32,480 nt of DNA, taken from the NCBI GenBank assembly GCA_903881425.1, contig CAIRTF010000142.1, forward strand, positions 1 through 32,480, given 5' to 3'. Below, piece by piece: positions 1,720-17,000 of the stretch. The translations under genes and the position numbers were made by a program. The stretch comes from an uncultured Chitinophagaceae bacterium (GTDB lineage Bacteria > Bacteroidota > Bacteroidia > Chitinophagales > Chitinophagaceae). The first letter of the stretch is position 1, and each line of letters starts with the position of its first letter. A model generated the notes under the pieces. That model was given only the letters and a program-made list of their open reading frames with translations. It ran no database searches and was not told the DNA's origin.

Positions 1720-4572
1720 ATGTTAACCGAACAAAAAACAAAATTATGGTTCACTTTATTTGCCCTGATTTTATCATCGGCAATTTTTGGACAACAAATA
1801 GTTAACGGTAAAATTACAGATGCAAAAGGTTTACCGGTAGAAGGTGCAAGCATTACCAATAAAACCTCCAAATTAGTTACCACTTCTTTAAAAGATGGCA
1901 GTTTTAAAATTAATGCTGTTGTAAAAGATGTGCTAGAGATCAGTTCTGTTGGATTTAAAACAACTACCACTTCTGTTAAGGGAATAACTGTAAATGTAGT
2001 GCTTGAATTATCGATCACTGATCTGCAGGAAGTAGTAATGGTAGGCACTCGCAGGGCAGGGAGAAGTAAAACAGAATCACCTGTTCCGGTGGATGTGATC
2101 AATGTGAATCAGGCAAGTGTACCTACTGCAAAAATGGATCTTACTTCTGTTTTAAATTATGCAGCGCCTTCCTTTAATTATAACAAACAAAGTGGTGCTG
2201 ATGGTGCCGATCATGTTGATTTGGGTACGCTGCGTGGTTTGGGGCCCGATCAAACATTGGTATTGATCAATGGAAAAAGAAGACATCAAACTGCATTCGT
2301 AGCTTTATTCGGTACAAGGGGTCGTGGTAATTCGGGTGTTGATTTGAATGCATTTCCGGAAGCATCGGTTGATAGAATAGAAATATTACGCGATGGTGCT
2401 TCTGCACAATATGGTTCTGATGCAATGGCAGGTGTGATCAATATCGTTTTGAAAAAAGATATCAATCATTGGAATATCAATGGCGGATGGAGCGGTTACT
2501 ATGATCATAAATACAATGCATTGAACAGTTTTGATCCCAGTCAATTTTATACAGGTAATCAAATAGATGGCGGTACTGTTTCTCTTTCGGTGAACAATGG
2601 TTTTGCCATTGGCCATAAAGGAGGCTTCATTAATATTGCTGCAGATTTTTTAAATCAAGGCAAAACATTTCGTCAGGTACCTGATACCAATGTGATGAAA
2701 AATCCGAATGCATTGCCGTTAAATAATTCTCGTCGTGCTTTTGGAGATGGTTCTGTAACCACCGGCGGTATTATGTTTAACATGGAAATTCCATTGCAAG
2801 GCAAAACAAGTTTTTATTCTTTTGGCGGATATAATTACAAAGCATCAGATGCTTTTGCTTATACCAGAAACTGGAGTGCAAGACCGGATCGTTTTCCTGT
2901 TAAACCAAATGGTGGTTTAATTTTTGTTCCGGGAATCATGCATACATCCAGTGATGGAGAAATATATTATAACCCGCATATTCAAACACATATCACAGAT
3001 ATTTCTTTAGCAGCAGGTATCAAAGGTGTTACCGCCAATGATTGGAATTGGGATTTGAGTAATACGATCGGTAAAAATGATTTTCATTATTTCGGTGATC
3101 AAACTTTTAATGCTTCTAATATTGGTAATCCTTTTCAAACACATTTTGATGATGGCGGATTTAATTTTTTACAAAACACATTGAATCTTGATTTCAATAA
3201 AAATATTAAATCTGTAGCCGAAGGTTTGAACCTTGCATTTGGTGCCGAATACAGATATGAGCGTTATGCCATTTATAAAGGTGAAGATGCTTCTTATTCA
3301 AATTATAATACTTTCTTTGGTCCGGCATACAGTCAGGCACCCGGCTCACAGGGGTTTCCGGGATTTAGTCCTGCAGACCAAGTGGTTGCCAACAGATCGA
3401 ATCTTGGTTTATATGGAGATGCAGAATTAAATGTTTCTAAAAAATTATTATTGGACGGTGCCATTCGTTTTGAAAATTATTCTGACTTTGGTTTTGTAAG
3501 CACATTCAAATTAGCAAGTCGTTATAAACTGACAGATAATTTTAATATCAGAGGTTCTGTAAGTACAGGTTATCGTGCACCATCTTTACAGCAAATGTTT
3601 TTCAGCAATACACTTACTTCATTTAGTGGCGGACAATTAGTGCAATCACGCATTGCTGCAAATGGAAGCAAACTGGCCAATGCAGCAGGTATTCCTAAAT
3701 TAAAAGAAGAAACATCTGTTAATGCCAGCATCGGTTTTAGCTGGAAGCCTGCTAAAGCATTTACCTTTACTGTTGATGGATATATGGTGAAGGTTCAGGA
3801 TAGAATTGTATTATCAGGATTATTTGATGGCTCTCTATCCACTTCATTCGGCAATCAATTAAATGCATTGGGTGTTTCTACTGCACAATTCTTTGATAAT
3901 GCAGTCAGCACCACCAATTATGGTGTAGATATTGTTGCTGACTATACAAAAAAATGGAGTAATCATACTTTCAAAGTATTGTTAGCAGGTAATGTTCAAA
4001 GCATGAATATTGATGCGGTGCATTATCCAACTTTATTGGGTGATACTTATTTTCATAGAAAAGTATTTTTCAGTGACAGAGAGGAAGCATTCTTAAAAGC
4101 TTCTGCACCTAAAGCAAAATTCTCTTTAGCATTAGATTATACTGTGGGTAAATTCGGATTTGGTTCTCACTTGACTTATTTCGGTAATTTAAAATTATTA
4201 GGTTTTGGTTGGACCGGTTTAGCAAGTGCTGCTGGTACCAACGGACCGGGAGATCCTAATATTTCCGGCGCATTCCTGGGTATTGATCCTTATGTTGATA
4301 TTGATGGTTACAGCGACCAGGTGCATGTATTACCGGAAGTATTTAATCAAACAGCAAAAATTACTACAGACATTTATGCATCTTATAAATTATGCAAAGC
4401 AGCTACCTTATTTATGGGTGCAGATAATTTGTTTAATGTGCATCCCGATTTAAGTGCAGTACCCAAAGCTCGTTATGAAGCATTGGATAATGAAAGCGGC
4501 GGACCTTGGGATTCTGTTCAAATGGGCTTTAACGGATTAAGGGTATTTACTAAATTGGTTTTAAATTTTTAA
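1720..4572 (+). CDS. TonB-dependent outer membrane receptor
   Basis: This 950-aa protein has a signal peptide (about residues 1-25, ending FGQQ) and a carboxypeptidase-regulatory-like domain from about 27 to 105 (GKITDAKGLPVEGASI). A plug domain follows at about 120-250, with the conserved stretches VLINGKRRHQ and RIEILRDGASAQYGSDA. The rest is a C-terminal beta-barrel ending in Phe (KLVLNF), the usual outer-membrane insertion signal. It imports a ligand across the outer membrane using TonB-ExbBD energy. The substrate cannot be read from the sequence. There is no SusD-like partner next to it, so it does not look like a polysaccharide-utilisation locus. It is transcribed alone: a strong hairpin follows the stop. 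Confidence 0.92.
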   Translation: MLTEQKTKLWFTLFALILSSAIFGQQIVNGKITDAKGLPVEGASITNKTSKLVTTSLKDGSFKINAVVKDVLEISSVGFKTTTTSVKGITVNVVLELSITDLQEVVMVGTRRAGRSKTESPVPVDVINVNQASVPTAKMDLTSVLNYAAPSFNYNKQSGADGADHVDLGTLRGLGPDQTLVLINGKRRHQTAFVALFGTRGRGNSGVDLNAFPEASVDRIEILRDGASAQYGSDAMAGVINIVLKKDINHWNINGGWSGYYDHKYNALNSFDPSQFYTGNQIDGGTVSLSVNNGFAIGHKGGFINIAADFLNQGKTFRQVPDTNVMKNPNALPLNNSRRAFGDGSVTTGGIMFNMEIPLQGKTSFYSFGGYNYKASDAFAYTRNWSARPDRFPVKPNGGLIFVPGIMHTSSDGEIYYNPHIQTHITDISLAAGIKGVTANDWNWDLSNTIGKNDFHYFGDQTFNASNIGNPFQTHFDDGGFNFLQNTLNLDFNKNIKSVAEGLNLAFGAEYRYERYAIYKGEDASYSNYNTFFGPAYSQAPGSQGFPGFSPADQVVANRSNLGLYGDAELNVSKKLLLDGAIRFENYSDFGFVSTFKLASRYKLTDNFNIRGSVSTGYRAPSLQQMFFSNTLTSFSGGQLVQSRIAANGSKLANAAGIPKLKEETSVNASIGFSWKPAKAFTFTVDGYMVKVQDRIVLSGLFDGSLSTSFGNQLNALGVSTAQFFDNAVSTTNYGVDIVADYTKKWSNHTFKVLLAGNVQSMNIDAVHYPTLLGDTYFHRKVFFSDREEAFLKASAPKAKFSLALDYTVGKFGFGSHLTYFGNLKLLGFGWTGLASAAGTNGPGDPNISGAFLGIDPYVDIDGYSDQVHVLPEVFNQTAKITTDIYASYKLCKAATLFMGADNLFNVHPDLSAVPKARYEALDNESGGPWDSVQMGFNGLRVFTKLVLNF

Positions 4573-7782: not shown

Positions 7783-8262
7783 ATGAAATTACTAATTAAT
7801 TTAGCATCACAAAATTTATTTTATATGGAAGGGGAAGATTTCTACTCGGCCGCTTATACCGGCAGCAAAAAATTTACGCAGCATGATGTGCGAACAGCCA
7901 ATGCCACCGGCTTTGGTGCTGCTGCCGATGATTATATGGAACGGGGCATTGATTTGAATGAACAACTTATCAGAAATAAACCGGCTACTTATTTTTTTAA
8001 GATGAACAGCGATGCGATGGAGCCGGCCCATATTTGCATCAATGATATTTTGATTGTTGACAGAAGTATTAAAGTTTCCAACGGAAAGATTGTTGTGGTT
8101 TCTGTAAATGGAGATTTAGTGGTGCGTCGCTATCATCAAAGCTTTAATAAGGTTTTGCTCATTGCGGATAATAAAAAATACAAAGACATTTCGATTGATG
8201 AGTTTATGAATATTACTATTTGGGGAGTGATCATTTATAATATTCACTCCCTAACCCCCTAA
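7783..8262 (+). CDS. umuD: UmuD-like S24 family protein, predicted catalytically inactive
   Basis: This 159-aa protein aligns along its length with UmuD, the RecA-activated subunit of DNA polymerase V: DDYMERGIDLNEQLI, ILIVDRSI, KIVVVSVNGD, and the C-terminal WGVIIYNI. Three functional sites are altered. The nucleophile motif GDSM reads SDAM (A78 instead of Ser60 of E. coli UmuD). The general-base Lys97 corresponds to R115 (VVRRY for TVKKL). The Cys-Gly cleavage site corresponds to T42-G43. The codon for A78 is gcg at 8014-8016, so this is not a translation slip. Self-cleavage is therefore predicted to be lost. There is no helix-turn-helix, so it is not a LexA repressor. An internal ATG at 7825 would put the former cleavage site at residue 28, closer to E. 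coli UmuD (24), and is a possible alternative start. The last codons (L-T-P-stop) come from a palindromic repeat. Confidence 0.85.
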   Translation: MKLLINLASQNLFYMEGEDFYSAAYTGSKKFTQHDVRTANATGFGAAADDYMERGIDLNEQLIRNKPATYFFKMNSDAMEPAHICINDILIVDRSIKVSNGKIVVVSVNGDLVVRRYHQSFNKVLLIADNKKYKDISIDEFMNITIWGVIIYNIHSLTP

Positions 8263-8270
8263 AGGGGGAG
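8247..8270 (+). repeat. REP-like palindromic repeat, copy 3 (left orientation)
   Basis: The core is CCCCCTAAAGGGGG preceded by CTCCCTAA. It encodes the end of the umuD-like gene, whose stop codon falls in the loop at 8260-8262. On RNA it would form a strong hairpin between umuD and the DUF559 gene. Its inverted partner is at 8661-8684. Confidence 0.8.
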
Positions 8271-8285
8271 TTCAAAACGTTTCAT

Positions 8286-8702
8286 ATGAAAAAGAAAATG
8301 TTTAGAAAAGCAGGTCTGTTAATTTTCTCAAATGCCAAACAATTAAGAAACAATATGACTAATGCAGAAATAATTCTTTGGCAATATTTAAAAACAAAAC
8401 CATTAGGTTATAAATTCAGAAGGCAACATCCTATTCATCAATCCATCGCTGATTTTTATTGTCACGCTTTACAGTTAATTATTGAAGTTGATGGAAGTAT
8501 TCATGAAAAAGAAGAAAATAAAACAGCAGATGAAGAACGAGATCACCGATTTACATCTACAGGAATCACAACACTTCGATTTTCTGATACACAAATATTT
8601 CATTCAATAGAAAGTGTTATCGCTGAAATAAAAAACAGCATTATTCAATTAGAAAAAAAATTTCCCCTTCAGGGGGTTAGGGTGTATGAAAGCCATTGTT
8701 GA
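8286..8702 (+). CDS. DUF559 domain protein, Vsr-like/PD-(D/E)xK endonuclease fold
   Basis: This 138-aa protein has the DUF559 core from about residue 26 to 117: AEIILWQYL, FRRQHPI, then ADFYC, IIEVDGSIH and TTLRFSD. The D56, E67 and D69 region corresponds to the acidic metal-binding part of the Vsr/restriction-endonuclease-like fold. Nuclease activity has not been shown for most members. The C-terminus (FPLQGVRVYESHC) is encoded by the right-hand palindromic repeat, and the gene overlaps the umuC start by 17 bases. It interrupts what would be a umuD-umuC operon. In this window it is the only nuclease-like gene associated with the repeats, which makes it a candidate partner of the repeat family. 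Confidence 0.8.
   Translation: MKKKMFRKAGLLIFSNAKQLRNNMTNAEIILWQYLKTKPLGYKFRRQHPIHQSIADFYCHALQLIIEVDGSIHEKEENKTADEERDHRFTSTGITTLRFSDTQIFHSIESVIAEIKNSIIQLEKKFPLQGVRVYESHC
8661..8684 (-). repeat. REP-like palindromic repeat, copy 4 (right orientation)
   Basis: The core is CCCCTTCAGGGGG followed by TTAGGGTG, the inverse of copy 3. It ends one base before the umuC ATG at 8686. A hairpin here would sit on the umuC translation start region. Confidence 0.8.
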
Positions 8703-9966
8703 TTGTAATAGTTTTTATTGTTCCTGCGAAAGAGTATTTCGTCCGGATCTGGCCAATAAACCTGTAGTGGTATTGAGTAATAACGATGGCTGCATCATCT
8801 CCCGCAGTGACGAAGCAAAACAACTCGGTGTGGAAATGGCCGGACCTTATTTTAAGGCAAAACCATTAATTGAAAAATATGGCATACATACTTTTTCATC
8901 GAACTATCATTTATATGGCGACATGAGTTGGCGTGTAATGGAAACATTGCGCATAATAGTTGGCAAAGAAAATGTAGAAGTGTATTCTGTTGATGAAGCT
9001 TTTTTAAATTTAGATCATATTCCGCCTCACGCTATTCATCATCTTGCAAAAGAAATAAAAGAGACGGTTGAAATGTGGACAGGTATTCAGGTATCGGTGG
9101 GTGTAGCACCTACAAAAGTTTTATCAAAAGTAGCCAACCGTTTAGCTAAAAAAAATAAACAAGCCACTCAGTGTGTTTTGGTATTGGATACAGAAGAAAA
9201 AATAAATAATGCATTACAAAAAACACAGGTGGATGATGTGTGGGGTGTTGGTGGCAGGTATGCTTATAAATTGCATCAATGGCAAATTGATAATGCGTAT
9301 CAATTGAAAAATATGGATATAGAATGGGCGAGAAAAAATTTAGGCGGTGTAATGGGTGTTCGTTTGATAAAAGAATTGCGCGGAGAAATTGCCATTATCA
9401 TGGAAGATGAGCTCATTCATAAAAAAATAATCGCTACTACCAGAATGTTCGGTGCACCTGTTGATAATATCAAAGACATTAAAGAAGCCATTGCCACCTA
9501 TACTTCACGTGCTGCAGAAAAATTACGCCGACAAAACTCTGTTGCTAAAACCATCAGTATATTTATTGTAAAAAAAGAAGCATCACACACAACACATTTC
9601 AGGCACGGACCAAGCATTGGTACTTATATGCATTTACCCATTGCAACTTCTATCACACAAGAATTAATAAAGCCTGCAGTGAAATTAGTAGATGAATTAT
9701 TTGAAGAAGGTGCGCTTTATAAAAAAGCAGGCGTGCTATTAAGTGATATTATACAAGATCATTCTGTTCAGGGAAATTTATTTGTTCCTGAATCAGCCAA
9801 TAAAAATCGTTTGTTGATGAATATGATTGATAATGTTAACTTTTCGATGCGGGATGATGTATTGAAATTTGCATCATCAGGCACTGCAAGAGATTGGAAG
9901 ATGCGACAAGAACTCAGATCAAAAAGATATACCACCAGATGGGATGAATTGTATGAATTGAAATGA
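8686..9966 (+). CDS. umuC: Y-family translesion DNA polymerase, UmuC subunit of Pol V type
   Basis: This 426-aa polymerase synthesises DNA across damaged template bases. The catalytic acidic residues are visible: D6 in the N-terminal VDCNSFYCSCE motif, and D103 and E104 in YSVDEAFLNL. Other UmuC-type markers are LSNNDGCIISRSDEAK, the helix-hairpin-helix region around VWGVGGRYAYKL, and the C-terminal KRYTTRWDELY signature. Length is normal for UmuC (422 in E. coli). Its start overlaps the DUF559 frame, so translation may be coupled. Its cognate UmuD-like protein at 7783 looks non-cleavable, which would change how this polymerase is activated. The gene converges on the DUF72 gene with a three-base gap. 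Confidence 0.95.
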   Translation: MKAIVDCNSFYCSCERVFRPDLANKPVVVLSNNDGCIISRSDEAKQLGVEMAGPYFKAKPLIEKYGIHTFSSNYHLYGDMSWRVMETLRIIVGKENVEVYSVDEAFLNLDHIPPHAIHHLAKEIKETVEMWTGIQVSVGVAPTKVLSKVANRLAKKNKQATQCVLVLDTEEKINNALQKTQVDDVWGVGGRYAYKLHQWQIDNAYQLKNMDIEWARKNLGGVMGVRLIKELRGEIAIIMEDELIHKKIIATTRMFGAPVDNIKDIKEAIATYTSRAAEKLRRQNSVAKTISIFIVKKEASHTTHFRHGPSIGTYMHLPIATSITQELIKPAVKLVDELFEEGALYKKAGVLLSDIIQDHSVQGNLFVPESANKNRLLMNMIDNVNFSMRDDVLKFASSGTARDWKMRQELRSKRYTTRWDELYELK

Positions 9967-14001: not shown

Positions 14002-17000
14002 CTACATATTTCTTCTGTACTGACCACCCACTTCGTATAAGGCATGAGAGATTTGTCCGAGTGAACAATATTTTACCGTTTCCATCAATGCTTCAAATAA
14101 ATTACCATTATTAATGGCAACGGTTTTTAACTCATTTAATTTTTCTGTTGCCTTATTTTTATTGCGCTGATGAAACGCTTGCAGGTTTTGTATCTGTTGT
14201 TCTTTTTCCTCTTTGGTAGAACGAATGACTTCTGTTGGTAAAATAGTTGGACTACCTTTTTTATTGAGAAAAGTATTCACACCAACAATCGGCAATTCGC
14301 CGGTATGTTTTAATGTTTCGTAGTATAAACTTTCTTCCTGAATTTTATTTCTTTGATACATTCTTTCCATCGCACCCAATACACCACCGCGTTCGTTGAT
14401 ACGATCAAACTCAAGCAGCACAGCTTCTTCCACCAAATCGGTTAATTCTTCAATTGCAAAACTTCCCTGAATAAAATTTTCTGTTTTGGCAGAACCCAAT
14501 TCACGATTAATTATTAATTGTATCGCCATTGCTCTGCGAACACTTTCTTCTGTGGGTGTTGTAATGGCTTCATCATAAGCATTGGTGTGTAGCGAATTGC
14601 AATTATCATAGATCGCATACAAAGCTTGTAATGTTGTTCGGATATCATTGAAATCTATTTCCTGTGCATGCAAACTTCTGCCACTTGTTTGTATATGATA
14701 TTTTAATTTTTGTGAACGATCATTCGCTTTGTATTTTAATTTCATTGCCTTCGCCCAAATTCTTCTGGCGACTCTGCCTATTACACTATATTCTGCATCC
14801 ATTCCATTACTAAAGAAGAAAGATAAGTTGGGTGCAAAATCATCTATATTCATTCCTCTGCTTAAATAATATTCCACATAAGTAAACCCATTCGATAAAG
14901 TAAATGCTAATTGAGTGATGGGATTAGCACCTGCCTCTGCAATATGATAACCGCTGATAGAAACACTATAAAAGTTTCGTACTTTATTATCAATAAAATA
15001 CTGTTGTACATCGCCCATTAATTTTAAAGCAAACTCTGTTGAGAAGATACAAGTATTCTGCGCCTGATCTTCTTTTAAAATATCTGCCTGCACTGTTCCC
15101 CGAACTTGTGATAATGCTTCTGCTTTTATTTTTTCATAAATATCTTTCGGCAATACTTCATCACCGCTTAATCCCAATAGTTTTAATCCTAAACCATTAT
15201 TGCCTTCGGGTAATCTTTCGGGAGAAGATGGGTTGTAATAAATAGGCTTATTAGAAATTTTGAATTTATGATTTGCAATCTTTTCAACTTCACTCCATAA
15301 ATTATTTTCATCAATATATTTTTCACATAATTGATCGATGGCTGCATTCATAAAAAACGCCAATATCATTGGTGCCGGCCCGTTGATGGTCATGGATACA
15401 GAAGTTTTTGCATCGCACAAATCAAAACCACTGTATAATTTTTTAGCATCATCCACAGTAGCAATACTAACACCACTATTACCCACTTTTCCGTAGATGT
15501 CGGGACGAAAATCAGGATCTTCACCATATAATGTAACACTATCAAATGCAGTGCTCAAGCGAATTGCTGGCTGTCCGAGTGAAACATAATGAAATCTTTT
15601 ATTCGTTCTTTCCGGTCCGCCTTCTCCTGCAAACATTCTGGTAGGATCTTCTCCTTGACGTTTTAATTCAAACACACCGCTTGTATATGGAAATTCTCCG
15701 GGAATATTTTCCTGCAATTGCCATTTAAGGATATCGCCCCAATCTTTATACTTTGGCAACACCACTTTTTTGATTGTTGTACCACTTAATGATTTTGTAG
15801 TGAGCGATTGTTTAATGGTCTTATTTCTGACTTCATACTCAAAAAAATCTTGATTGTATTTCTTTACAAGTATACTCCATCCTTCAATTAATTTTTTACA
15901 ATCAGGATGTAGTTGTTGTTCATATTTTTTTTGAAGTGATTTTAGTTCAGGAATATCACTTGTTTCTTTTTCACCAATCACGCCATTGATCTGATACAAT
16001 TTGGAAGCAATCACACATTGTTCATTTACCCATGCATCATAACTTCTGTTGTTATCAGAGATCTCTGATAAGTAACGAACACGTTTAGCAGGAATGATTT
16101 GCGATTTGGAAGATGTATCTTTTGTATGTTGATGAATATCCATTTTACCAAAGTGAATATTCGTTTTCTTTTCAATGGTGGTAATTAGTTTTTCGAATAG
16201 TTCATTCACACCCACATCATTAAATTGAGCGGCAATGGTTCCAACAATAGGTAAGTCCTCATCTTTAGCATCCCACAAATGATGATTGCGTTTGTATTGT
16301 TTGCGTACATCATGCAATGCATCCAATGCACCGGCTTTATCAAACTTATTAATACAAACCACATCTGCATAATCCAACATATTGATCTTCTCTAACTGAG
16401 AGGCAGCGCCATATTCAGGCGTCATCACATACATGCTAACATCACAATAATCTAAAATAGATGCATCACTCTGACCAACACCTGCGCTTTCTAAAATAAT
16501 AAAATCAAAACCGGCAGATTTACAAATATCAATGGCTTCTTGTACATATTTACTCAATGCTGTATTATCATCACGTGTTGCTAAACTGCGCATATATGCA
16601 CGTGGATGAGAGATGGCATTCATTCTTATTCTATCACCCAACAATGCACCACCTGTTTTTTTCTTAGACGGATCTACAGAAATAACAGCAATGGTTTTAT
16701 TAGTGAATGTGTGCAAATAACGACGAACGATCTCATCGGTGACAGAGCTCTTTCCTGCACCACCTGTTCCTGTAATTCCGAGAACCGGGATTAGCCCCTC
16801 ACCCCCTAAAAGGGAGATGTTGATTGGATTAAATTTTTTTATTTCATCTAAAATTTGAGAATAGCTTTCTTGATTTTCTGCTTTTGTAATCGCTCTTGCT
16901 ATTAACCGTATATCTTTTACTTCTCCTAATGGTAGTTTTTCATTCCATCTTTGTTTTGTAGCTTCCCCTTTAGTGGATGGGGGGGTATCACATTGTTTAA

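Follow-up and report, generated by a model that had tools for sequence, protein, structure and literature searches.

A DUF559 nuclease gene and the two inverted REP-like repeats around it probably form a mobile unit (we put this at roughly 0.6), REPtron-like in its working but with an enzyme resembling homing endonucleases, as judged from sequence comparisons. The association of gene and repeats, their orientation, mobility by comparison of genomes, co-occurrence and a conserved motif are directly supported; from these we infer cleavage, its substrate and the copying of the unit. The unit was found in the window, i.e. the whole stretch of 32,480 nucleotides analysed here from an uncultured Chitinophagaceae bacterium (contig CAIRTF010000142.1), in which the following features were located:

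7783–8262, + strand: umuD, host gene upstream, umuD-type S24 peptidase
8247–8268, + strand: left REP-like end; outward lead CTCCCTAA (8247–8254) and palindrome CCCCCTAAAGGGGG (8255–8268)
8286–8702, + strand: DUF559 gene, predicted Vsr-fold nuclease of 138 aa; conserved core 8328–8639, ExDGxxH motif intact
8663–8684, − strand: right REP-like end, inverted; palindrome CCCCTTCAGGGG (8664–8675), then outward lead GTTAGGGTG to 8684
8686–9966, + strand: umuC, host gene downstream
9–157, no strand assigned: gene-less inverted REP pair; palindromes at 17–28 and 138–149, leads outward
16795–16815, − strand: solo REP in frame within icmF; peptide SLLGGEGL, directly ahead of VLGITGTGG

The umuD–umuC locus and its DUF559 enzyme

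The first-pass annotation of this DNA had described inverted repeats, each a lead plus a palindrome, enclosing a DUF559 gene between umuD and umuC. Coordinates and gene identities were confirmed, as was the position of the right repeat one base before the umuC start codon (the lead ends at 8684, the ATG is at 8686). The last residues of UmuD and its stop codon (IHSLTP-stop) sit within the left repeat, and the DUF559 frame passes through the right repeat and stops at 8702, overlapping the start of umuC by 17 bases; umuD, DUF559 and umuC are therefore still tightly packed. The loops of the two palindromes are unlike, TAAA on the left and TTCA on the right. With up to two mismatches allowed, the palindrome matched six times at five places in the window (one of them on both strands), compared to a shuffle mean of 0.04. 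The pair at 9–157 has the layout of the DUF559 unit minus the gene, with one member matching imperfectly.

The window protein matched Pfam PF04480 with 101.1 bits (gathering cut-off 20.6). Its AlphaFold model (pLDDT 87) had as best Foldseek matches 3hrl, a DUF559 protein of N. gonorrhoeae, and the homing endonuclease I-Bth0305I (3r3p; E = 5.5e-4, probability 1.00). A sequence profile also found both structures (I-Bth0305I with E = 5.1e-6), while the fold matches to Vsr and TnsA were far weaker (E = 0.2–0.5). Judged by sequence and model, the window gene fits an EDxHD/Vsr-type homing endonuclease by its predicted Vsr-like catalytic domain, related to that of I-Bth0305I; PMC12350094 describes EDxHD/Vsr domains as known homing endonuclease domains. 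A role in defence was rejected, as PADLOC and PHROGs gave just weak matches, the best in PADLOC being the methyl-directed restriction enzyme mREase_II (E = 7.1e-8).

Repeats beside DUF559 genes and across genomes

PF04480 matched in 94 of the 195 genomes of the window's family, 79 of them with E < 1e-10. We compiled 94 distinct family units from 30 loci and 60 regions of the PF04480 search, one locus of another search and the window itself; the 60 regions were taken in score order among the matches listed, and the units are not a random draw. As L045 and L111 had too little flank, 92 family units could be tested. A named set comprised 81 units in 80 loci, the best 80 of at least 578 relatives; three were without flank, leaving 78. 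One unit is present in both sets (L056, identical to L250).

Under a strict rule, requiring a C-rich arm and a C-rich lead pointing outward, repeats were found on both sides of 41/92 family units and 35/78 named units (76/170 when pooled, window included and one unit counted twice), compared to 0/1360 random intervals and 0/29 GIY-YIG genes. At least one strict end was present in 66/92 family and 60/78 named units, against 25/1360 random intervals and 3/29 GIY-YIG genes. Independent scoring gave palindromes on both sides of 33/92 family units versus 0/540 random intervals and 0/90 neighbouring ORFs, and inverted flank similarity (score of at least 12) in 55/92 versus 7/540 and 4/90, respectively. 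Named units had palindromes on both sides in 24/78 cases versus 0/640 random intervals, and inverted flank similarity in 46/78 versus 10/640. The expectation of the first-pass annotation that such repeats are commoner beside DUF559 genes than in the background was thus borne out, with values far above those of random intervals, neighbouring ORFs and GIY-YIG genes.

Both strict ends were found in 36/59 in-frame or fused family units versus 5/33 free-standing ones. Inward leads on both sides occurred in 8 family and 9 named units. The low share among free-standing units counts against the bracket model, as do the 26/92 family and 18/78 named units that had no C-lead repeat on either side. From palindrome to palindrome, the 76 units with both ends measured 471.5 bp in the median (IQR 448–530.5), and the lead at a unit end is often CCTCACCCC plus a few bases, followed by a G+C-rich hairpin.

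That small nucleases in general attract palindromes was rejected as an explanation: palindromes stood on both sides of 5/29 GIY-YIG genes, but the window-type repeat bracketed none of them. The GIY-YIG nuclease genes of the same family (L276–L305) often have other palindromes, ACCTGCCTGCCGGCAGGCAGGT and TCCGCCNNNGGCGGA. A tRNA gene lies within about 300 bp in 10 of the 15 GIY-YIG loci scanned, and in L299 and L304 the nuclease gene stands between two copies of one tRNA gene (Phe and Pro, respectively). GIY-YIG genes and their palindromes are possibly a second nuclease–palindrome element, settling at tRNA genes.

The genome of the window (G000; 2.75 Mb, 99.4% complete) has CCCCTNNAGGGG at 40 sites and the reversed control at 0, and together with the shuffle counts in the window this rules out chance palindromes. 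Its one DUF559 gene is that of the window. A profile search of the genome gave no PF01797 match, i.e. no hit to a Y1/RAYT transposase, and the classic RAYT explanation was therefore rejected for this genome. The repeats are asymmetric, consisting of a C-rich lead and a hairpin; 16 sites are oriented one way, 16 the other way and 8 are ambiguous. Four gene-less pairs less than 125 bp apart show the outward leads of the DUF559 unit (L023, L029 276/398, L038 and L041). Among the other gene-less pairs within this distance, L034 has an ambiguous left member, and L029 244/276 is in direct orientation. Of the 40 sites, which were not chosen by their lead, 1 had GTAG or CTAC no more than 8 bases from the hairpin.

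To compare the 195 family genomes, we counted the excess of two palindrome types and called a genome rich at five or more. Rich genomes were 49/79 of those with DUF559 versus 16/116 of those without strong DUF559 (Fisher test, p = 2.4e-12, not corrected for phylogeny). Against the link, 30/79 DUF559 genomes were not rich in the counted palindrome types, and the 16/116 others were rich. Within the 24 genera containing both kinds of genome, 15 went up, 3 down and 6 were tied (sign test, p = 0.0075; Wilcoxon, p = 0.0029). Genus g25 is contrary, with 29 and 23 repeats in its DUF559-less members versus 7 in the DUF559 member, and so are g21 and g41, with small counts. The palindrome type beside DUF559 also predicted the type elsewhere in the genome (p = 0.017, 10 versus 55 genomes; p = 1.9e-5, 12 versus 53 genomes). 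A Y1 transposase was present in 144/195 genomes; when these were split by enzyme, 42/66 with both DUF559 and Y1 were rich, 7/13 with DUF559 alone, 15/78 with Y1 alone and 1/38 with neither. The first-pass annotation had regarded DUF559 as enzyme partner or passenger of the repeats. Genome co-occurrence, also where no Y1 match was found, favours a partner with a putative enzymatic role.

Units within protein genes, alleles and taxonomic spread

By open frame, 60/94 family units lie in frame in, or are fused to, larger genes, defined by an open frame that extends more than 90 aa past the domain in one or both directions; a few of them, such as L074, may be merely long frames. Assigned by sequence pattern, 17 units are at LeuS site 1, 7 at LeuS site 2, 6 in MetH, 5 in AroC, 4 in IcmF, 4 in N-terminal fusion to an amino-acid kinase, 3 in CinA, 2 in adenine deaminase, 2 in MetG, 10 at other sites and 34 are free. 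Two genomes, G014 and G123, have units at both LeuS sites together. For 9/10 representative host pieces the Pfam families agreed with these labels, one "other" host being GcpE, and the host piece of L132 had no Pfam match. No splicing (Hint) domain was found by Pfam among the 10 host flank pieces (one side per host), and units of about 470 bp leave no space for such a domain, which argues against inteins. An in-frame insert would be translated within the host protein, and this invasion of essential genes goes beyond what the first-pass annotation foresaw. The ExDGxxH catalytic-type motif is present in 92/94 family units and is intact in 58/60 in-frame or fused ones, suggesting that the nuclease is under selection.

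Some loci stand out individually. A single open frame of 1380 aa (L046, on G053:C9) contains a DUF559 insert as well as a GIY-YIG insert. The DUF559 unit of L164 (G051:C10), which is flanked by CCCCCGC-type palindromes, is interrupted by a stop codon and apparently decaying. L222 has a pair of near-identical DUF559 units separated by about 1.8 kb, and one of the pair is likewise interrupted by a stop codon.

A search for LeuS in 30 further genomes located it in 28, with site 1 readable in 25 and site 2 in 19. Read by eye, site 1 was a short allele without repeat in 22 genomes (including G000, G121 and G177), carried a solo repeat in frame but no DUF559 in G148 and G162, and was a longer allele without clear repeat in G086; G069, a congener of G148, is filled. 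Site 2, likewise read by eye, had solo repeats in G165, G138 and G162 and no clear repeat in the remaining 16. Among loci with a unit at site 1, a solo repeat stands at site 2 in G133, G045 and probably G124. In icmF, the position before VLGITGTGG is taken by the solo repeat in the window and by a DUF559 unit in G141, G182, G031 and G124.

Among the 30 UmuC loci read, two have DUF559 at the umuD–umuC junction, the window and G138, and their DUF559 proteins are 52% identical. In the window, about 471 bp separate the WGV codons of UmuD from umuC; the distance is 461 bp in G138 and 216 bp in G189, where the right repeat is present and DUF559 is absent. In the eight empty junctions measured (G058, G087, G166, G025, G001, G049, G118 and G172) it is 38–89 bp. 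Empty junctions, a question raised by the first-pass annotation, thus exist in relatives, and they rule out a fixed ancestral umuD–DUF559–umuC operon. In seven other genomes (G121, G100, G126, G028, G182, G086 and G067), a Y1 gene precedes umuC by no more than about 0.6 kb, and umuD–umuC therefore appears to be a hotspot of palindrome-linked elements. A RAYT label for the junction transposase of G121 (L078) was rejected, as it scored over the IS200 cut-off and under the RAYT cut-off of NCBIfam and is of Y1/IS200 type. Y1 genes occupy the junction itself in L078, L089, L092, L094 and L102, and on visual inspection the Y1 genes of L078 and L094 have short GCCTNAAGGC-type palindromes next to them.

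In G065, two units that are 98% identical across about 470 bp sit at unrelated places. On the right their identity ends at the outer repeat edge; the left border is unclean, identity beginning about 28 bp outside the inner palindrome and the outer-left repeats having diverged. No target-site duplication was seen by eye at this pair, and exact borders elsewhere are uncertain. The core of a LeuS-embedded unit is identical in Ilyomonas limi (L250) and G065, which makes Chitinophagaceae the probable family of the genomes compared. On the DUF559 tree the site label changes 26 times (minimum 10, shuffled 55.8), and neighbours at different sites occur, such as G069 at LeuS site 1 with G107 at LeuS site 2 (support 93); with so short a domain, firm resolution is limited to a few forks. 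At the level of sequence, mobility is supported by the near-identical G065 units, the many insertion sites, the empty alleles at LeuS and umuD–umuC, and the solo-repeat alleles.

Both strict ends were present in named Bacteroidota such as Sediminibacterium (L200), Pedobacter (L202), Xanthomarina (L215) and Prevotella (L247, L268), among others, and beyond Bacteroidota in three Patescibacteria (L223, L255, L274) and in Balneolales (L256). A single strict end was found in Acaryochloris (L266, within a large open frame), Parcubacteria (L248), Candidatus Viridilinea (L275) and Sandaracinobacter (L267), and none by the strict rule in Brevundimonas (L259). The undescribed small mobile element of Bacteroidota suggested by the first-pass annotation is supported as regards mobility, while confining it to Bacteroidota is too narrow. 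A Myxococcota DUF559 unit (L261) has 137-bp inverted ends (2838–2974 and 3430–3566) that are 90% complementary, and adjoins an array of repeats of about 20 bp.

Mechanism, alternatives and related systems

The mobile unit, of which the umuD–umuC feature is one copy, would be widespread and about 0.47 kb long, with two inverted REP-like ends, leads outward, and one DUF559 gene between them, and would settle at gene junctions (umuD–umuC) and in frame within protein genes. The DUF559 nuclease presumably cuts the repeat, nicking or cleaving DNA where a repeat hairpin or a similar site occurs; the break may then be mended by host repair, which would copy the unit or a repeat into it. This would be a REPtron-like spread by a homing-like route in place of a Y1 transposase. 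Solo repeats and gene-less pairs could be non-autonomous relatives, landing pads or scars of the unit; the origin of the solo repeats is not accounted for, since recombination between inverted repeats inverts and does not delete. A wider reading, plausible if tentative, is that of a new class of autonomous element, in which a palindrome-recognising, homing-like nuclease would drive its own REP families in Bacteroidota and at least some Patescibacteria and live unspliced in essential proteins, its ends open and tolerated in frame. The same tentative reading would extend to Cyanobacteria, Chloroflexota and Alphaproteobacteria, where the versions are looser or one-sided, and to the Myxococcota unit with its long inverted ends.

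We consider it rather unlikely that another enzyme such as Y1/RAYT spreads the repeats and that DUF559 hitchhikes between two of them. Y1 transposases are indeed widespread in the family (144/195 genomes), they track the repeats in genomes without strong DUF559 (15/78 versus 1/38), and they lie just upstream of umuC in the seven genomes named above, the one checked being IS200-type. However, the genome of the window has 40 repeats without a Y1 match, 7/13 DUF559-positive, Y1-negative genomes are repeat-rich, GIY-YIG genes, which represent another small nuclease family, are not bracketed (both sides 0/29, either side 3/29), and the catalytic-type motif of DUF559 is retained.

Quite improbable is a homing-type parasite at fixed permissive sites, whose repeats would be recognition or insertion remnants without spread of their own. 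While the similarity of DUF559 to a Vsr-like homing endonuclease and the recurrence of the same LeuS, MetH, IcmF and AroC sites across genera, with clustered labels (26 changes versus 55.8 shuffled), fit such a parasite, the units occupy many unrelated sites, close copies stand at unrelated loci, and the dispersed gene-less pairs and solo repeats match the unit ends. As hairpins are common at gene ends and DUF559 has weak PADLOC matches (mREase_II), the gene might also be an ordinary accessory or defence nuclease adjoined by transcription terminators, but this is very improbable: the outward lead makes each hairpin asymmetric, the two hairpins form an inverted pair, they occur in frame inside ORFs with DUF559, and neighbouring ORFs are without such pairs (0/90).

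The mobile DUF559–REP unit can be set beside several known systems. RAYT genes are bracketed by an inverted REP pair, and the window gene is likewise flanked by an inverted repeat pair, with repeats dispersed through the genome. Unlike in the REPtron, the enclosed enzyme is DUF559 with a predicted Vsr-like fold and not a Y1 HUH enzyme (TnpA-REP), the repeat has a C-rich lead and not GTAG, and the whole unit occurs in frame within essential genes; because it has neither the Y1 enzyme nor the GTAG tag, the DUF559 unit is not a REPtron member. It resembles the EDxHD/Vsr homing endonucleases (I-Bth0305I) in fold and sequence and in returning to the same sites of conserved genes, whereas it differs from them in ending in palindromic repeats dispersed genome-wide, and no splicing domain was found in the tested hosts. 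Rickettsia palindromic elements are in-frame palindromic inserts in protein genes, as DUF559 units are, but they are not known to have a nuclease gene inside. CGTC REPs, palindromes without a dedicated transposase, are similarly short palindromes in genes and intergenic space; their lead differs, and a candidate enzyme is identified for the DUF559 repeats. PMC3733652 describes the same REPs of REPtron (REP–RAYT) systems as dispersed as singles and pairs, mostly intergenic and sometimes intragenic, and the enzyme behind the CGTC repeats as an open question.

No DUF559–REP link appeared in the titles and abstract openings of the literature searched, subscription journals being mostly outside it, which is weak evidence of novelty. 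DUF559 might supply the enzyme that REP families without a transposase lack, and the mobile unit names it as a candidate for such palindromic repeats. It would also give a concrete role to a large family that Pfam still labels as of unknown function, and it suggests that essential enzymes such as leucyl-tRNA synthetase contain an insert that is translated, apparently without being spliced out, and whose nuclease motif is intact.
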